In this document: piece by piece, positions 2,916 to 23,658 of the stretch | Position numbering within the stretch: the stretch's first letter is position 1 | Layout of the letters: every line of letters starts with the position of its first letter | From: Halalkalirubrum salinum | GTDB taxonomy: Archaea > Halobacteriota > Halobacteria > Halobacteriales > Haloferacaceae | Length of the DNA: 58,181 nt | NCBI RefSeq assembly: GCF_005543295.1 | Contig: NZ_SRSG01000037.1 | Location: 14,754-72,934, forward strand | Reading direction: 5' to 3' | Made by a program: the position numbers and the translations under genes | Notes under the pieces: generated by a model | What the model was told of the DNA's origin: nothing | Seen by the model: only the letters and a program-made list of their open reading frames with translations | The model's database searches: none

Positions 2916-3857
2916 CTACAGCGACCCGATCGCCGGATCCGTCAGATCAGCACCCAAGACAAAGTCGGGTTCGTCGGCAACGGGCACCCGTGCCCGCGCA
3001 GTGTCAGCGATCCACCGGGCTGACTCCGGAATCAGCACGCGGGTTCGATCGACACCCGCGGCCGCCGCATCTCGTTGAATCGCGTGATACAGCGCCTCGG
3101 CTGCAGCCGGCGTCTCCCAGGCGGCAACACCGTACAGCGCCCATGTTTCGGTTTCGCCAGCCTCGGCCGATCGTTCGATCGTTCGGTCACGGTAGGCGAT
3201 ACCCGCGACACCCCCGTCGCGGACGGTCAACAGCCGGTCATCCGCGGCGGCCCCAACGAGTCGATCGCGGGTGAGCGTCGACAGCGCCCACGACTCTTCG
3301 TCGTCCATGACGAGTCCGCGAAGGTCCTCGCGGGCGGCTGCGGTCGTCCAGAACGACCACGCCGCAGTCGGGTTGTCCCCGATCGGGAGGGCAGGTTCGG
3401 CATTCGGATCGGGTTCGGGCTCAGCAAAGCGGAACTCCGTTTCTGGCTCGAAGCCGACCGACTGCGCCTGGCCCAAGCCGGCGATGTTCCACGAAAAGAC
3501 CATCACGCGCGCGACGGTCGCTCCTTGCTCGCGACACCACCGGAGGCCAGCGTTCGCCAGCGACTTCGATCGGCCCTGTCCCCGGTATGCGGGGTTCATC
3601 CGCATCCCCTGCAGCCATCCCTCGTGGTCGCTGAGCATAGCCGCCTGACAGATGCCGGCGATGTCCTCACCGTGGTTGACGTCGAGAACGAACGTCCGCT
3701 GGGCAGCGCCATCAGTCTCGACCCACTCAGCGAAGACCCGCGGGATATAATCGGAGACGTCGCGATCACTCCAAGTGTCTTCGGTGAACGCGACGACGGC
3801 CGCCTCGTCGTCGGATTGAGCCTGTCGAACGGTGAGCGTTGGAGACGATCGAGTCAT
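2916..3857 (-). CDS. GNAT-family N-acetyltransferase
   Basis: A 313-residue GNAT-fold protein. The acetyl-CoA-binding motif A is visible as GMRMNPAYRGQGRSKSL near residues 84-100, with the Q/R-x-x-G-x-G/A loop as RGQGRS. The C-terminal 150 residues look like a second, more diverged GNAT half. It starts two bases after the gatD stop, so the two genes are almost certainly cotranscribed; that says nothing certain about its substrate, which cannot be read from sequence. Confidence 0.85.
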   Translation of the reverse strand: MTRSSPTLTVRQAQSDDEAAVVAFTEDTWSDRDVSDYIPRVFAEWVETDGAAQRTFVLDVNHGEDIAGICQAAMLSDHEGWLQGMRMNPAYRGQGRSKSLANAGLRWCREQGATVARVMVFSWNIAGLGQAQSVGFEPETEFRFAEPEPDPNAEPALPIGDNPTAAWSFWTTAAAREDLRGLVMDDEESWALSTLTRDRLVGAAADDRLLTVRDGGVAGIAYRDRTIERSAEAGETETWALYGVAAWETPAAAEALYHAIQRDAAAAGVDRTRVLIPESARWIADTARARVPVADEPDFVLGADLTDPAIGSL

Positions 3858-3859
3858 GC

Positions 3860-5167
3860 TTATCGCCAGGGTTGGGACTCTTCGGTGAGTTCGCCGGCAA
3901 GATCAGAACGCATGGCGTCCCGAACAGCGGTCTGCTCGCCGGCGAGGTTTGCGAGCGCCCACATGAGCTTCACCTTCGCCGTGCCAGCCAGCGTGTCGCC
4001 GGCCTCGACGACACCCGCATCGAGGAGATCACGGCCCGTGTCGTAGACGCGATCGCACACCCGGCCAGCGAGACACTGACTCGTCATAACGACCACGGTT
4101 CCATCGTCGACGAGCGATTCGATCCGCGGAATCAGATCGGTGTGCACGTGTCCGAGCCCGGTTCCCTCGATGACGACACCGGCCATTCCGTCGAGATAGT
4201 CCCACGCGCGTGGGTCCATCCCGGGGGTGAATTTGACGAGTTCGACCGCCGGTTTGAGATCATTGGCGAGCGAAAGACTCCGTTCGCCGCGTTCGGTGTA
4301 CTCGCGGACAAACTCGATCGCCGCTGTCGCGACTGATCCGTCAGCGCCGTCGTCTGTTGCGGTCTCGTAGGCGATCGTCCCAAGCGGTTGGTTGCCGATC
4401 GTCTCGAAGGCGTCTCGCCGGGAGGTGTGGTTTTTGCGGACGCGGGTTCCCCGGTGCAGCGCACAGCTATCGTCGCTTTCAGAGCCGTGCATGCATACGA
4501 GCACTTCGGCGCAGTCAGCTTTTGCGGCTTCAACTGCACAGATCGCGTTCATGACGTTGTCCGAGGAGGGCCGATCGGCCGACCGCTGGCTTCCGGTGAA
4601 CACGATCGGCACGGGCGTCTCAAGCATGAACGACAGCGCCGCCGCGGAGTACTGCATCGTGTCGGTCCCGTGCATGACGACGACGCCGTCAGCGCCGGCG
4701 TCGATCTCCTCGTAGACGGCGGTTGCGAGGTCACTCCAGATCGAGGGATCCATGTTTTCAGAGAGGATGTTCGCAACGACGCGTCCGCGGTAGTTCGCCC
4801 GGCCGGCGAGCTCTGGAACTGCCCGAAGGACGTCTTCGGCGTCGAACTGTGCAGTCACCGCGCCCGTCCGATAGTCGACCGTCGACGCGATCGTCCCGCC
4901 AGTAGAGATGAGCGAGATCGTCGGGAGATTGTCCTCGAACGTGATTTCGGAGACGTCGCTGGAGTCATCTGTGTCGTCTGTGTCATCATCGCCAACGTCG
5001 TAGACATTCGTTTCGAGCACGTCGACAGTGGCGTCTGTCCGATCGATACCGATGTTGTAGCCACCGTCGAGTTTGATTACGAGATTGTCGCTGTCCGAAG
5101 AGGGCATCAACACGCCCTCGTTGGTGACGTCGTCGCGGGTGACGCGGACCCGATCGCCTGGATGCAT
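3860..5167 (-). CDS. gatD: Glu-tRNA(Gln) amidotransferase subunit D
   Basis: Asparaginase-like subunit of the archaeal GatDE complex, which releases ammonia from glutamine and feeds it to GatE to convert Glu-tRNA(Gln) into Gln-tRNA(Gln). The 435-residue protein opens with MHPGDRVRVTRDDVTNEG, the small N-terminal domain seen in GatD. It continues with asparaginase motifs: ISTGGTIAS (first catalytic Thr), VVMHGTDTMQYSAAAL (second Thr and Asp) and VFTGSQRSADRPSSDN. A longer frame reaching 5503 exists, but the ATG at 5167 matches the family start and the extension is arginine-rich shadow. gatE is not in the window. Confidence 0.95.
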   Translation of the reverse strand: MHPGDRVRVTRDDVTNEGVLMPSSDSDNLVIKLDGGYNIGIDRTDATVDVLETNVYDVGDDDTDDTDDSSDVSEITFEDNLPTISLISTGGTIASTVDYRTGAVTAQFDAEDVLRAVPELAGRANYRGRVVANILSENMDPSIWSDLATAVYEEIDAGADGVVVMHGTDTMQYSAAALSFMLETPVPIVFTGSQRSADRPSSDNVMNAICAVEAAKADCAEVLVCMHGSESDDSCALHRGTRVRKNHTSRRDAFETIGNQPLGTIAYETATDDGADGSVATAAIEFVREYTERGERSLSLANDLKPAVELVKFTPGMDPRAWDYLDGMAGVVIEGTGLGHVHTDLIPRIESLVDDGTVVVMTSQCLAGRVCDRVYDTGRDLLDAGVVEAGDTLAGTAKVKLMWALANLAGEQTAVRDAMRSDLAGELTEESQPWR

Positions 5168-20725: not shown

Positions 20726-21412
20726 GTGAACCATCTCGACGAGATCTCCGTCGAGGAATTGCAAGACGCCCTCGACAACGTGGACAATAAGAAGCCGATA
20801 CAACGGCTCTTAGCGGCAATAGCGTACAAAAACGGTGTTTCCCAAACCGAGTTAGCTGAGTGGTACGACGTGCAACGGCGGACAATCTACAGCTGGCTCA
20901 AGCGACTCGACACAAACGAGTCGCTTGAGCAGGCCGTGTCTGATGATAAACGAACTGGAAGAAAACGAAAACTTTCAGAACCACAGCAAGAAGAATTTGA
21001 AGAAGCCGTTCACGAACCACCTAGTGAGGCCGGGATTGACGCGCCGGCGTGGACGCCAGCGCTTGCTCAAGATTTTCTCGAAGAAATGTACAGCGTCGAG
21101 TATTCAATCCCAAGTTGTCGGCGGTTGCTGAAAGAAGCGGGATTGAGCTACCAGAAACCCCGGCGATCAACCGCCGAAGCTGATGAAGACGAGCAAGAAG
21201 CGTTCCAAGATGAGCGCAGAAAAAGCGGCGGGGGATGGACGCCACCGTAGTCTGTATCGACCAAAGCAAGAGATCTGTGCACGCGGCGCTCCGTCGAACT
21301 CTCTGGGCAACGCGACTGGACGCGTCTACTGGACGCGATCACCGAAGGCAGTGGTCGCTTTTTTTGCCGAGTCACCGAGTACGTCACCGCCGATTACGAA
21401 ATCAGTTCATTT
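20726..21412 (+). pseudogene. IS630-type transposase, N-terminal part (frameshifted)
   Basis: The GTG at 20726 opens a frame with helix-turn-helix KNGVSQTELAEWYDVQRRTIYSWLKR and the Lys/Arg-rich linker typical of IS630 (YSIPSCRRLLKEAGLSYQKP). The frame is lost near 21225; the next part, MDATVVCIDQSKRSVHAAL with the first catalytic Asp, continues in another frame from 21235. A third frame resumes with SGQRDWTRLLDAIT and FFCRVTEYVTADYEI to about 21404. At least two frameshifts are therefore present. The coding sequence stops at the 8-bp repeat GTTCATTT that flanks the nested cassette. Confidence 0.85.
21405..21412 (+). repeat. 8-bp target-site duplication, left copy
   Basis: GTTCATTT directly before the left inverted repeat of the nested cassette; an identical copy follows the right repeat at 22512-22519. 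Eight bases is the duplication length known for IS6-family transposition. Confidence 0.8.
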
Positions 21413-21569
21413 GGCGTTGTTGAAATCCTATTCTTCAGACACAGAGTAGGATGAAACAGCCGGTCGCTGAAGAGTGCGTATTGACTACCAATAGCTCAGC
21501 CAGTTCAACGAGGTGACCCGGTGGCTACTGCGGAAAACCATTTCCCGTTGTGACCTCTACATTCTAAAG

Positions 21570-22058
21570 ATGGTTTCCAAGGAACTCGACAGCGTGGATA
21601 AAGGCATACTGTATCTTCTCCAGAAGGATGCCCGACGTAATACGACCGAGGACATGGCTGAGAAAGTCGGTGTTTCGTCCAGTACGGTTGCTAATCGAAT
21701 CAACAGTCTTGAGGAGCGTGGCGTCATTATCGGTTATCACCCAATCATCAAGTATAGTGAAACAGGGTTAGGTCACCACCTCCTCGTGACCGCCACAGTC
21801 CCCCTCCAAGACCGAGAGAAGATACTGGCCGACCTTATGGAGGTTTCCGGTGTCGTTAGCATTCATGAGCTATTGACTAACAATGAGAACCTGTCACTAG
21901 AAGTAGTGGGCCGCACGTCGGAGGACATTGAGGACACCCTCGAAGCTCTGGACTCACTCGGCGTCGATATTGAGCGGATGGAGATGATGAAACAGGAGCG
22001 AACGAACCCGTACAACCACTTCGGTCAGGAGTTTGCGAATAAGGAGGACACTGGCTAA
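21570..22058 (+). CDS. Lrp/AsnC-like winged-helix regulator on cassette
   Basis: A 162-residue protein: MVSKELDSVDKGILYLLQKD leads into the HTH NTTEDMAEKVGVSSSTVANRINSLEERGVI, as in Lrp/AsnC proteins, followed by an alpha/beta domain (HHLLVTATVPLQDREKILAD, VSGVVSIHELL, NLSLEVVGRTSEDIEDTLEA) like a RAM ligand domain. ATG at 21570 matches the usual start; the longer frame from 21513 would begin in IS end sequence. With the following HalOD1 gene it is the only cargo of the cassette. Target genes and ligand are unknown. Confidence 0.88.
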   Translation: MVSKELDSVDKGILYLLQKDARRNTTEDMAEKVGVSSSTVANRINSLEERGVIIGYHPIIKYSETGLGHHLLVTATVPLQDREKILADLMEVSGVVSIHELLTNNENLSLEVVGRTSEDIEDTLEALDSLGVDIERMEMMKQERTNPYNHFGQEFANKEDTG

Positions 22059-22136
22059 TTTCCAGCCTCTCTTAAGTCACTCTGGAAACTATCAATACTC
22101 CAATAGGTTCAACAAGGGCGGGGACTATAGGAGTGT

Positions 22137-22388
22137 ATGGTCAAAGCACAGACCGCAACAGCGACCGTCGATACTGTAATCAATGAAGTAGTTGAGACAG
22201 TAGCCAAAGCAGAAGACGTTGACCCTCTCGAACTTACTCCCCCGCTCTATGAAGTAATCGACCCCGACGCCTTAGAGAGCTTATTTGCCAACCACCGAGT
22301 ACTTGGGAAGGTTATTTTCAATTATGCTGGCTACGAGGTGAGTGTTTTCTCTGATGGGGATGTTTCGGTCAAATCCCACGGTACATAA
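22137..22388 (+). CDS. HalOD1 output-domain protein on cassette
   Basis: An 83-residue single-domain protein. The HalOD1 signature is clear: LELTPPLYEVIDPDALESLF followed by GKVIFNYAGYEVSVFSDGDV. HalOD1 is a haloarchaeal domain predicted to act as an output module of signalling proteins; its biochemical function is unknown. It starts 78 bp after the Lrp-like gene on the same strand, suggesting a two-gene unit. Confidence 0.9.
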   Translation: MVKAQTATATVDTVINEVVETVAKAEDVDPLELTPPLYEVIDPDALESLFANHRVLGKVIFNYAGYEVSVFSDGDVSVKSHGT

Positions 22389-22511
22389 CCACAATCGCTG
22401 ACAGAATCGATGATACCCGCACCGCTGTAGATAACACTTTGCTGGATACACACTCTGTACTGATCGAGACTGGGTCAGAATGTATCACTTGCTGAGGATT
22501 TCAACAGAGCC

Positions 22512-22519
22512 GTTCATTT
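22512..22519 (+). repeat. 8-bp target-site duplication, right copy
   Basis: GTTCATTT directly after the right inverted repeat of the cassette, identical to 21405-21412. The interrupted transposase reading resumes at this point (FILLSVNGFEDSLIVVFD). Confidence 0.8.
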
Positions 22520-22743
22520 TATTATCAGTAAATGGATTCGAGGATAGCTTGATTGTAGTATTTGATGTGGCACTGTATTTCCAGGCATCGTATCCTCCGG
22601 AGTTGAATCCTGTCGAGAGGTGCTGGAGACAGCTTCAAGCGTCTCTTCGCAACCGCTTCTTTGACTCACTCGACGAGTTGACGACAGCGATTGATACAGC
22701 TCTCGACCAGCTCTCAATCCCAAAAGTGAACAACTACTTATAA
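22520..22743 (+). pseudogene. IS630-type transposase, C-terminal part
   Basis: Resumes the interrupted transposase with FEDSLIVVFDVALYFQAS (second catalytic region; family members have LDGAP here) and runs into YPPELNPVERCWRQLQASLR, with the last acidic catalytic residue, then DELTTAIDTALDQLS and a stop. About 20 residues normally found between YFQAS and SPELNPVE are missing, and the Asp-Gly-Ala-Pro core is altered, so this part is also damaged. Confidence 0.82.
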
Positions 22744-23165: not shown

Positions 23166-23658
23166 CAGTACGAGCTGGAGTCATAAAAATCCAATTTATA
23201 ATTATTAACTGGTCTTCTGTGGACAATTATTTAGAAATATAGCCCTATATAGAACAAATATATGTTACTCAGCCGTGTGGCTGTGAGAATCACCCGAGAG
23301 CCAGGTTACTCTCATTCCGACGAGTAACGTGCATCTCTCACTGCTCAAGATCCCGACGCCTGGTCAGTCTTGTTAGTTGCAGAAAACGCACCGCAAGTGA
23401 TCTACTGTACGATCGGTAGCTTCCGGTTGAACTCTGTCTAACGGATTTACACCGGGAAACACAGCTATCGTAACGTTTGCGACGATTTGCAACAGGTACC
23501 TCCGAATCCTGTCTGAGAGAGCGTGAATCAGCAGCTACTGAATCACTGTGAGATCATAAGTGCAAACGCTGCTATAGCCGTCATCGTCAGCGGGAGTCAC
23601 CACCCGTCGTCAGCATCTACGGTTGTCACCGCCATCCGTGCCGATCGCCCAAATCGCG
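23166..23658. other. Intergenic stretch, no gene seen
   Basis: About 490 bp without a credible coding frame. The part near 23170-23270 is AT-rich, suggesting foreign DNA. Near 23605-23628 it holds a diverged copy (20 of 24 bases) of the sequence at 20658-20681 on the other side of the mobile patch. No tRNA or clear terminator was found. Confidence 0.5.

Follow-up and report, generated by a model that had tools for sequence, protein, structure and literature searches.

A probable mobile insertion cassette with IS5-family ends carries an Lrp-HalOD1 gene pair in the haloarchaeon Halalkalirubrum salinum

Mobile insertion cassettes (MICs) are transposase-less elements that are bracketed by inverted repeats and flanked by a target duplication; examples are MIC231 of Bacillus cereus and the qnrD mic of the Proteeae (PMC3913671). 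Both carry one or more passenger genes, with the helper insertion sequence lying elsewhere, and transposase-less cassettes have so far mostly been described singly and in bacteria. Related classes are the transporter IS (tIS), which has a passenger in addition to its own transposase, and the haloarchaeal MITEs and ISH2, which are transposase-free, are mobilised in trans and have terminal inverted repeats (TIRs) in common with a transposon (PMC3119063, PMC10264941). One transposon passenger gene has been described in haloarchaea (PMC10544981), and a review of the IS6 family records two MITEs and just one passenger-bearing member (PMC7986276). In the literature searched, which lay outside ISfinder and subscription journals, we found no description of a haloarchaeal IS5-ended cassette family.

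We compared these systems with a 1099-bp segment (21413-22511) of contig NZ_SRSG01000037.1 from Halalkalirubrum salinum; positions without a prefix refer to the window, the whole 58,181-nucleotide stretch of DNA that was analysed. The segment is bordered by exact copies of GTTCATTT (21405-21412 and 22512-22519), an 8-bp target-site duplication, and ends in 17-bp TIRs that match at 15 of 17 positions, GGCGTTGTTGAAATCCT on the plus strand (21413-21429) and, as reverse complement, GGCTCTGTTGAAATCCT on the minus strand (22495-22511). No transposase was found between these ends, and the only genes there (by Pfam) encode an Lrp-like regulator and a single HalOD1 protein, so that the octamers, repeats and gene content given in the sequence-only reading of this DNA all hold, coordinates included. 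Autonomous insertion sequences with matching ends are found in the same genome (C10:26531-28116) and in Natribaculum (L105). Like MIC231 and the qnrD mic, the segment is thus transposase-less, bracketed by inverted repeats, flanked by a target duplication and loaded with passenger genes, with a helper IS elsewhere, whereas it differs from those bacterial elements in being archaeal, in its IS5-family ends and 8-bp duplications, in its two-gene regulatory cargo, and in the dozens of unrelated cargos that occur on the same end frame. Its autonomous partners resemble a tIS in that a passenger gene separates their transposase from the left (L) end, but the window element itself is without a transposase. 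Like MITEs and ISH2 it is transposase-free and has its TIR in common with a transposon; however, MITEs are mostly short and non-coding, and at 1099 bp with a full operon of two conserved genes it does not resemble them in this respect, nor does it have the ISH8-type ends and 10-bp duplications of ISH2 (PMC3119063, PMC10264941). We consider it highly probable that 21413-22511 is a MIC of an IS5-family (ISH1-like) group, which captured lrp-halOD1 and was transposed in trans into a dead IS630 element.

The insertion site could be read directly. The cassette splits an IS630-family transposase pseudogene (20726-22743, plus strand; Pfam HTH_33 and DDE_3), and an uninterrupted IS630 copy in the same genome (L077, C17:123700) reads ...CATTTCATTTTAGCATTATG..., with TTCATTT present only once; the empty site is therefore visible and the cassette insertion is clean. 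The earlier description of a clean insertion into IS630 stands as far as this site is concerned, although alignment to L077 shows that the host copy also lacks ~35 bp and ~54 bp elsewhere, small deletions unrelated to the cassette. We also collected 330 end pairs from 100 harvested regions and from loci found earlier; 97 of these had an 8-bp duplication when one mismatch was allowed, compared to none of the 330 when the right flank was reversed. Together with the L077 empty site, this control refutes a chance origin of the octamers around an older rearrangement, an explanation for which only the imperfect TIR speaks and to which we give virtually no credence. Between the IS630 remnant and adk, the window also holds a dispersed repeat of ~115 bp (23465-23578), which has nearly 20 copies elsewhere in the same genome at 73-80% identity; the sister genome G188 has roughly a dozen.

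The sequence-only reading had assigned the cassette ends to the IS6 family. We find that they are of the IS5 family (ISH1-like). The IS5 element at C10:26531-28116 is 1586 bp long, has the TIR GGCTCTGTTGAAATCCT, TIRs matching at 16 of 17 positions and an exact duplication (ACATGAGA), and encodes a 273-aa transposase without stops (NCBIfam IS5 NF033579, E 5.5e-65) together with a passenger ORF for a 204-aa membrane protein. The Natribaculum relative L105 is likewise complete (1305 bp, duplication ATCCAAAT, TIRs 17/17), and the subterminal sequence at its non-transposase end is the same as that of the cassette left end. The L end of the window cassette is common to 15 transposase-bearing elements. 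When both ends were compared with the IS5 elements, the L end matched and the right (R) end only resembled the transposase-side (T) end.

An IS6-family origin, with movement by an IS6-family transposase, has some points in its favour: IS6 elements too have 8-bp duplications and GGC..TGTT-like tips (PMC7986276), and the PV6 plasmid of Halorubrum does hold one IS6 transposase (L090 290-1215) with an L end on one side and an R end on the other. That IS6, however, carries its own inner TIR (GGCGATGTTAAGTTAAG), and on this comparison of repeats it is an insertion or passenger and not the owner of the L...R frame. Three IS6 matches above the Pfam cut-off occur in the H. salinum genome, and in the two whose ends could be delimited the TIRs (GGCACTGTCTAGTTCAGGG and GGCGGTGTTCAGATAAG) are unlike those of the cassette, so that looking for a full IS6 element with the cassette ends returned only elements with other TIRs. 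By contrast, wherever a delimited element with these ends has a transposase, that transposase is of the IS5 family, as judged by homology to the IS5 protein. The IS6 explanation is thus largely refuted, and we regard it as very improbable. As a separate candidate helper, IS1595 was rejected: no member was found in the genome with PF12762, and the IS1595 near a Salinigranum copy of the end has different ends.

Cassettes with these IS5-type ends form a widespread and apparently undescribed family in which very different cargo sits on one set of ends. In the H. salinum genome we found five more intact transposase-less elements with the same TIR and 8-bp duplications, carrying HicBA (DUF7387 in the HicB position plus HicA; C42:107220-107908, L053 721-1409), MazE-PIN (one mismatch in the duplication; C16:33883-34727, L052 884-1728), a CAAX-type protease (C20:5323-6483, L112 2324-3484), a Tat-signal protein (C58:14653-15945, L050 854-2146) and a small membrane protein (C5:64825-65172, L054 826-1173). 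The L-end pattern (27 bases, at most one mismatch) was present in 102 of 392 sampled Halobacteriales genomes, covering 38 of 95 genera, and the reversed pattern, used as a control, in none. The 97 duplicated end pairs represent 64 distinct elements, of which ~40 lack a transposase and ~19 have an IS5 transposase, with a passenger between the transposase and the other end in nearly all of the latter; E008, a plain IS5, has a TIR that departs somewhat from the others. The cargo of the transposase-less elements, in a sample selected through the L end, which falls short of a complete census, includes HicBA, MazE-PIN, Mrr nuclease, proteases, a 7TM kinase and small membrane proteins, and several small ORFs of the short cassettes are predicted only. 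An Mrr-type restriction nuclease travels without a methylase on a Halorubrum plasmid (L080 2496-3871, duplication AGCTATTT). A 7TM histidine-kinase cassette occurs in two genomes (E045 and E051; loci L218 101-2017 and L226 1115-3006) with 97.5% identity and different duplications, which indicates that cassettes of this kind have moved recently.

The ends of these elements are modular. In the window, the L-type module (21413-21484, plus strand) comprises the TIR and ~55 bp, is common to other cassettes and to autonomous IS5-family elements, and has own-genome copies at 75-90% identity; the R-type module (22458-22511, plus strand) is common to other cassettes. In a search of plasmids, 42 from haloarchaea had the L end and 24 the R end. 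In consensus sequences the L end is identical in cassettes and autonomous elements for ~60 bp, and the R and T ends are alike yet distinct. With the spurious or compound pairs E011, E042 and E061 left out, the L end is combined with an R end in 29 of 41 cassettes and with a T end in 14 of 19 autonomous elements. The transposase module of the autonomous elements (~880 bp) is ~71-95% identical between them, with similarity ending right after the stop codon, and their passengers are mostly unrelated to one another.

This anatomy bears on whether the window cassette might simply be a decayed autonomous IS5 with a passenger, a remnant from which the transposase was recently deleted, and not a member of a stable non-autonomous class. 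Autonomous relatives do have passengers next to the L end, and the cassette E062 resembles the autonomous E014 minus its transposase module, as the two have a small membrane protein in common (79% DNA identity over 392 bp, spanning passenger and L end). However, most cassettes have the distinct R end where autonomous elements have T, and the cassette frame is still moving, as seen in the 7TM kinase pair, so that cassettes look like a separate frame that keeps moving. We therefore think decay unlikely, and favour a stable cassette class. Nested and compound elements suggest how such a frame could acquire cargo: E033 lies within E032, and in E003 the duplication adjoins an outer end, which lies 104 bp outside the inner L end, as would be the case if cargo is caught when transposition uses the end of a neighbouring element.

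The first gene of the window cassette, lrp (21570-22058, plus strand), encodes a 162-aa winged-helix regulator of the Lrp/AsnC family; its start was picked from relatives, and the ORF could open at 21513. The protein has Pfam matches to HTH_24 (E 2.5e-12) and HTH_AsnC-type (E 2.3e-11), and its residues 6-125 align with residues 2-116 of Pyrococcus furiosus LrpA (PDB 1i1g), so that the winged HTH is recognised by Pfam and the RAM-type C-terminal domain by the LrpA alignment, a separate Pfam match to the C-terminal domain being absent. The second gene, halOD1 (22137-22388, plus strand), starts 78 bp downstream and encodes an 83-aa stand-alone HalOD1 protein (Pfam E 8.7e-23). A single genome can encode as many as 49 stand-alone HalOD1 proteins, which are linked to signalling (PMC5847659), and one protein of this kind, the disk-determining factor DdfA, controls cell shape (PMC10869688). 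The window protein has the HalOD1 domain in common with these and passes the DdfA model (NCBIfam NF053557) marginally, at 71.8 bits against a cut-off of 70, but differs from DdfA in having an Lrp regulator as its cassette partner and in not being located beside rdfA/sph3.

Close relatives of the pair are patchily distributed, in 18 of 392 Halobacteriales genomes at E ≤ 1e-40, and of lrp alone in 10 of 391 at E ≤ 1e-60, own genome counted in both. The window lrp is 90% identical to that of a member of another family, compared to ~71-72% for adk even to other genera of its own family, and this difference points to horizontal transfer of lrp. HalOD1 is encoded next after Lrp in 26 of 27 loci examined, a set that holds a few places entered twice from two collections. 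The C-terminal half of halOD1 (22253-22388) has 83-90% DNA identity to L023 and L026 and ~55% to L022 and L028, while lrp is similar in all four, as if the half-gene had been exchanged. Two 6.5-kb stretches with Lrp-HalOD1 on one Halorussus aquaticus plasmid (L023 and L024) are 99.95% identical, a large duplication. Viral contigs yielded no Lrp relative and no exact L end; viral carriage was rejected, the phage match being to one partial HTH only.

The same pair with such ends and a different octamer, which the sequence-only reading had proposed to look for, does exist: a second complete Lrp-HalOD1 cassette is found in a Natrialbaceae MAG (L028 2708-4107, duplication GGTCGGGT). Its subterminal sequences differ from those of the window cassette at both ends, so that this pair was probably captured independently. 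The L028 cassette also has a third small ORF (3817-3990, 57 aa, without a family) that overlaps the end of halOD1 and is absent from the window cassette. Among the eight closest Lrp-HalOD1 loci on genome contigs, only L028 has both ends, and L027 (Halorubrum xinjiangense) retains a single perfect end beside the pair. Most close relatives therefore lie outside recognisable cassettes, as the earlier reading had considered they might, and the pair is not tied to such ends. Near the end-less relatives, the best degenerate TIRs in proper orientation have 6-8 mismatches, within the shuffled null; around the relatives as a whole, duplications of 3-7 bp are only chance pairs or a shadow of the 8-bp one of L028. 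The operon itself is ~80-98% identical to these relatives at the DNA level over a core of ~21527-22457 (plus strand) and falls to chance level beyond it at either side, ~55-110 bp inward of the cassette tips; these drops are likely capture junctions.

Our best guess at the function of the pair is that Lrp would regulate its own expression and its HalOD1 partner would feed into haloarchaeal signalling. The sequence-only reading had offered rewired host signalling or a dominance or addiction effect as possible roles. We also considered that the pair might be an addiction or toxin-antitoxin module holding the cassette in the genome. Consistent with this are the two-gene layout, the near-fixed lrp-halOD1 spacing among relatives, the HicBA and MazE-PIN cargo of sister cassettes, and the faster divergence of HalOD1 (53-80% identity) than of Lrp (84-93%) among the closest relatives. 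However, neither protein has a toxin domain by Pfam or NCBIfam, stand-alone HalOD1 proteins are numerous and linked to signalling as noted above, and HalOD1 occurs without Lrp in the cassette-like element L081 of Haloterrigena salifodinae (exact duplication AGTTCTCC, TIR 12/17). We thus find an addiction role quite improbable, and prefer a regulatory one.

Our model for the window cassette is that an lrp-halOD1 operon, found elsewhere without ends, came to lie within a pair of end modules, one L-type and one R-type, of ~55-110 bp and carrying the 17-bp TIR, most likely by use of the ends of neighbouring elements. An IS5 transposase supplied in trans, for which C10:26531-28116 is an intact candidate, would then have moved the cassette as a unit into the dead IS630, with duplication of 8 bp. 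Because the R-end subterminal sequence differs from the T end, the case for cross-mobilisation is the common 17-bp TIR, the L end and the 8-bp duplication; the assembly is a draft, and a better-matching helper could be absent from it. The pair, as an auto-regulated regulatory module, may itself gain from being carried. That this is an MIC carrying Lrp and HalOD1, moved by a transposase supplied in trans, had been suggested from the DNA alone and is now well supported by L028 with its other octamer, the empty site, the autonomous element with the same ends and the dozens of sister cassettes, with the trans step itself deduced from the matching ends.

MICs are already known in bacteria, and the haloarchaeal IS5 cassette system appears to be a new variety of them. 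One end frame recurs across 38 of 95 sampled haloarchaeal genera, and its cargo includes toxin-antitoxin pairs and even an entire sensor kinase. Tentatively, and with some doubt, we propose a haloarchaeal gene-cassette economy in which fixed IS5-type L and R modules exchange unrelated genes and operons and are moved in trans by passenger-carrying IS5 elements. If true, accessory genes would be supplied much as by integrons, but through transposon ends in place of attC sites, and Lrp-HalOD1 would be one regulatory cargo among others. Such cassettes are missed by standard annotation because no transposase is present, and their ends are easily searched, so that the accessory genes they carry can be catalogued. 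If trans-mobilisation holds, it would provide a route by which single genes and operons spread among haloarchaea, and the cassette system may be one reason why small regulators, stand-alone HalOD1 proteins among them, are patchily distributed and horizontally transferred.
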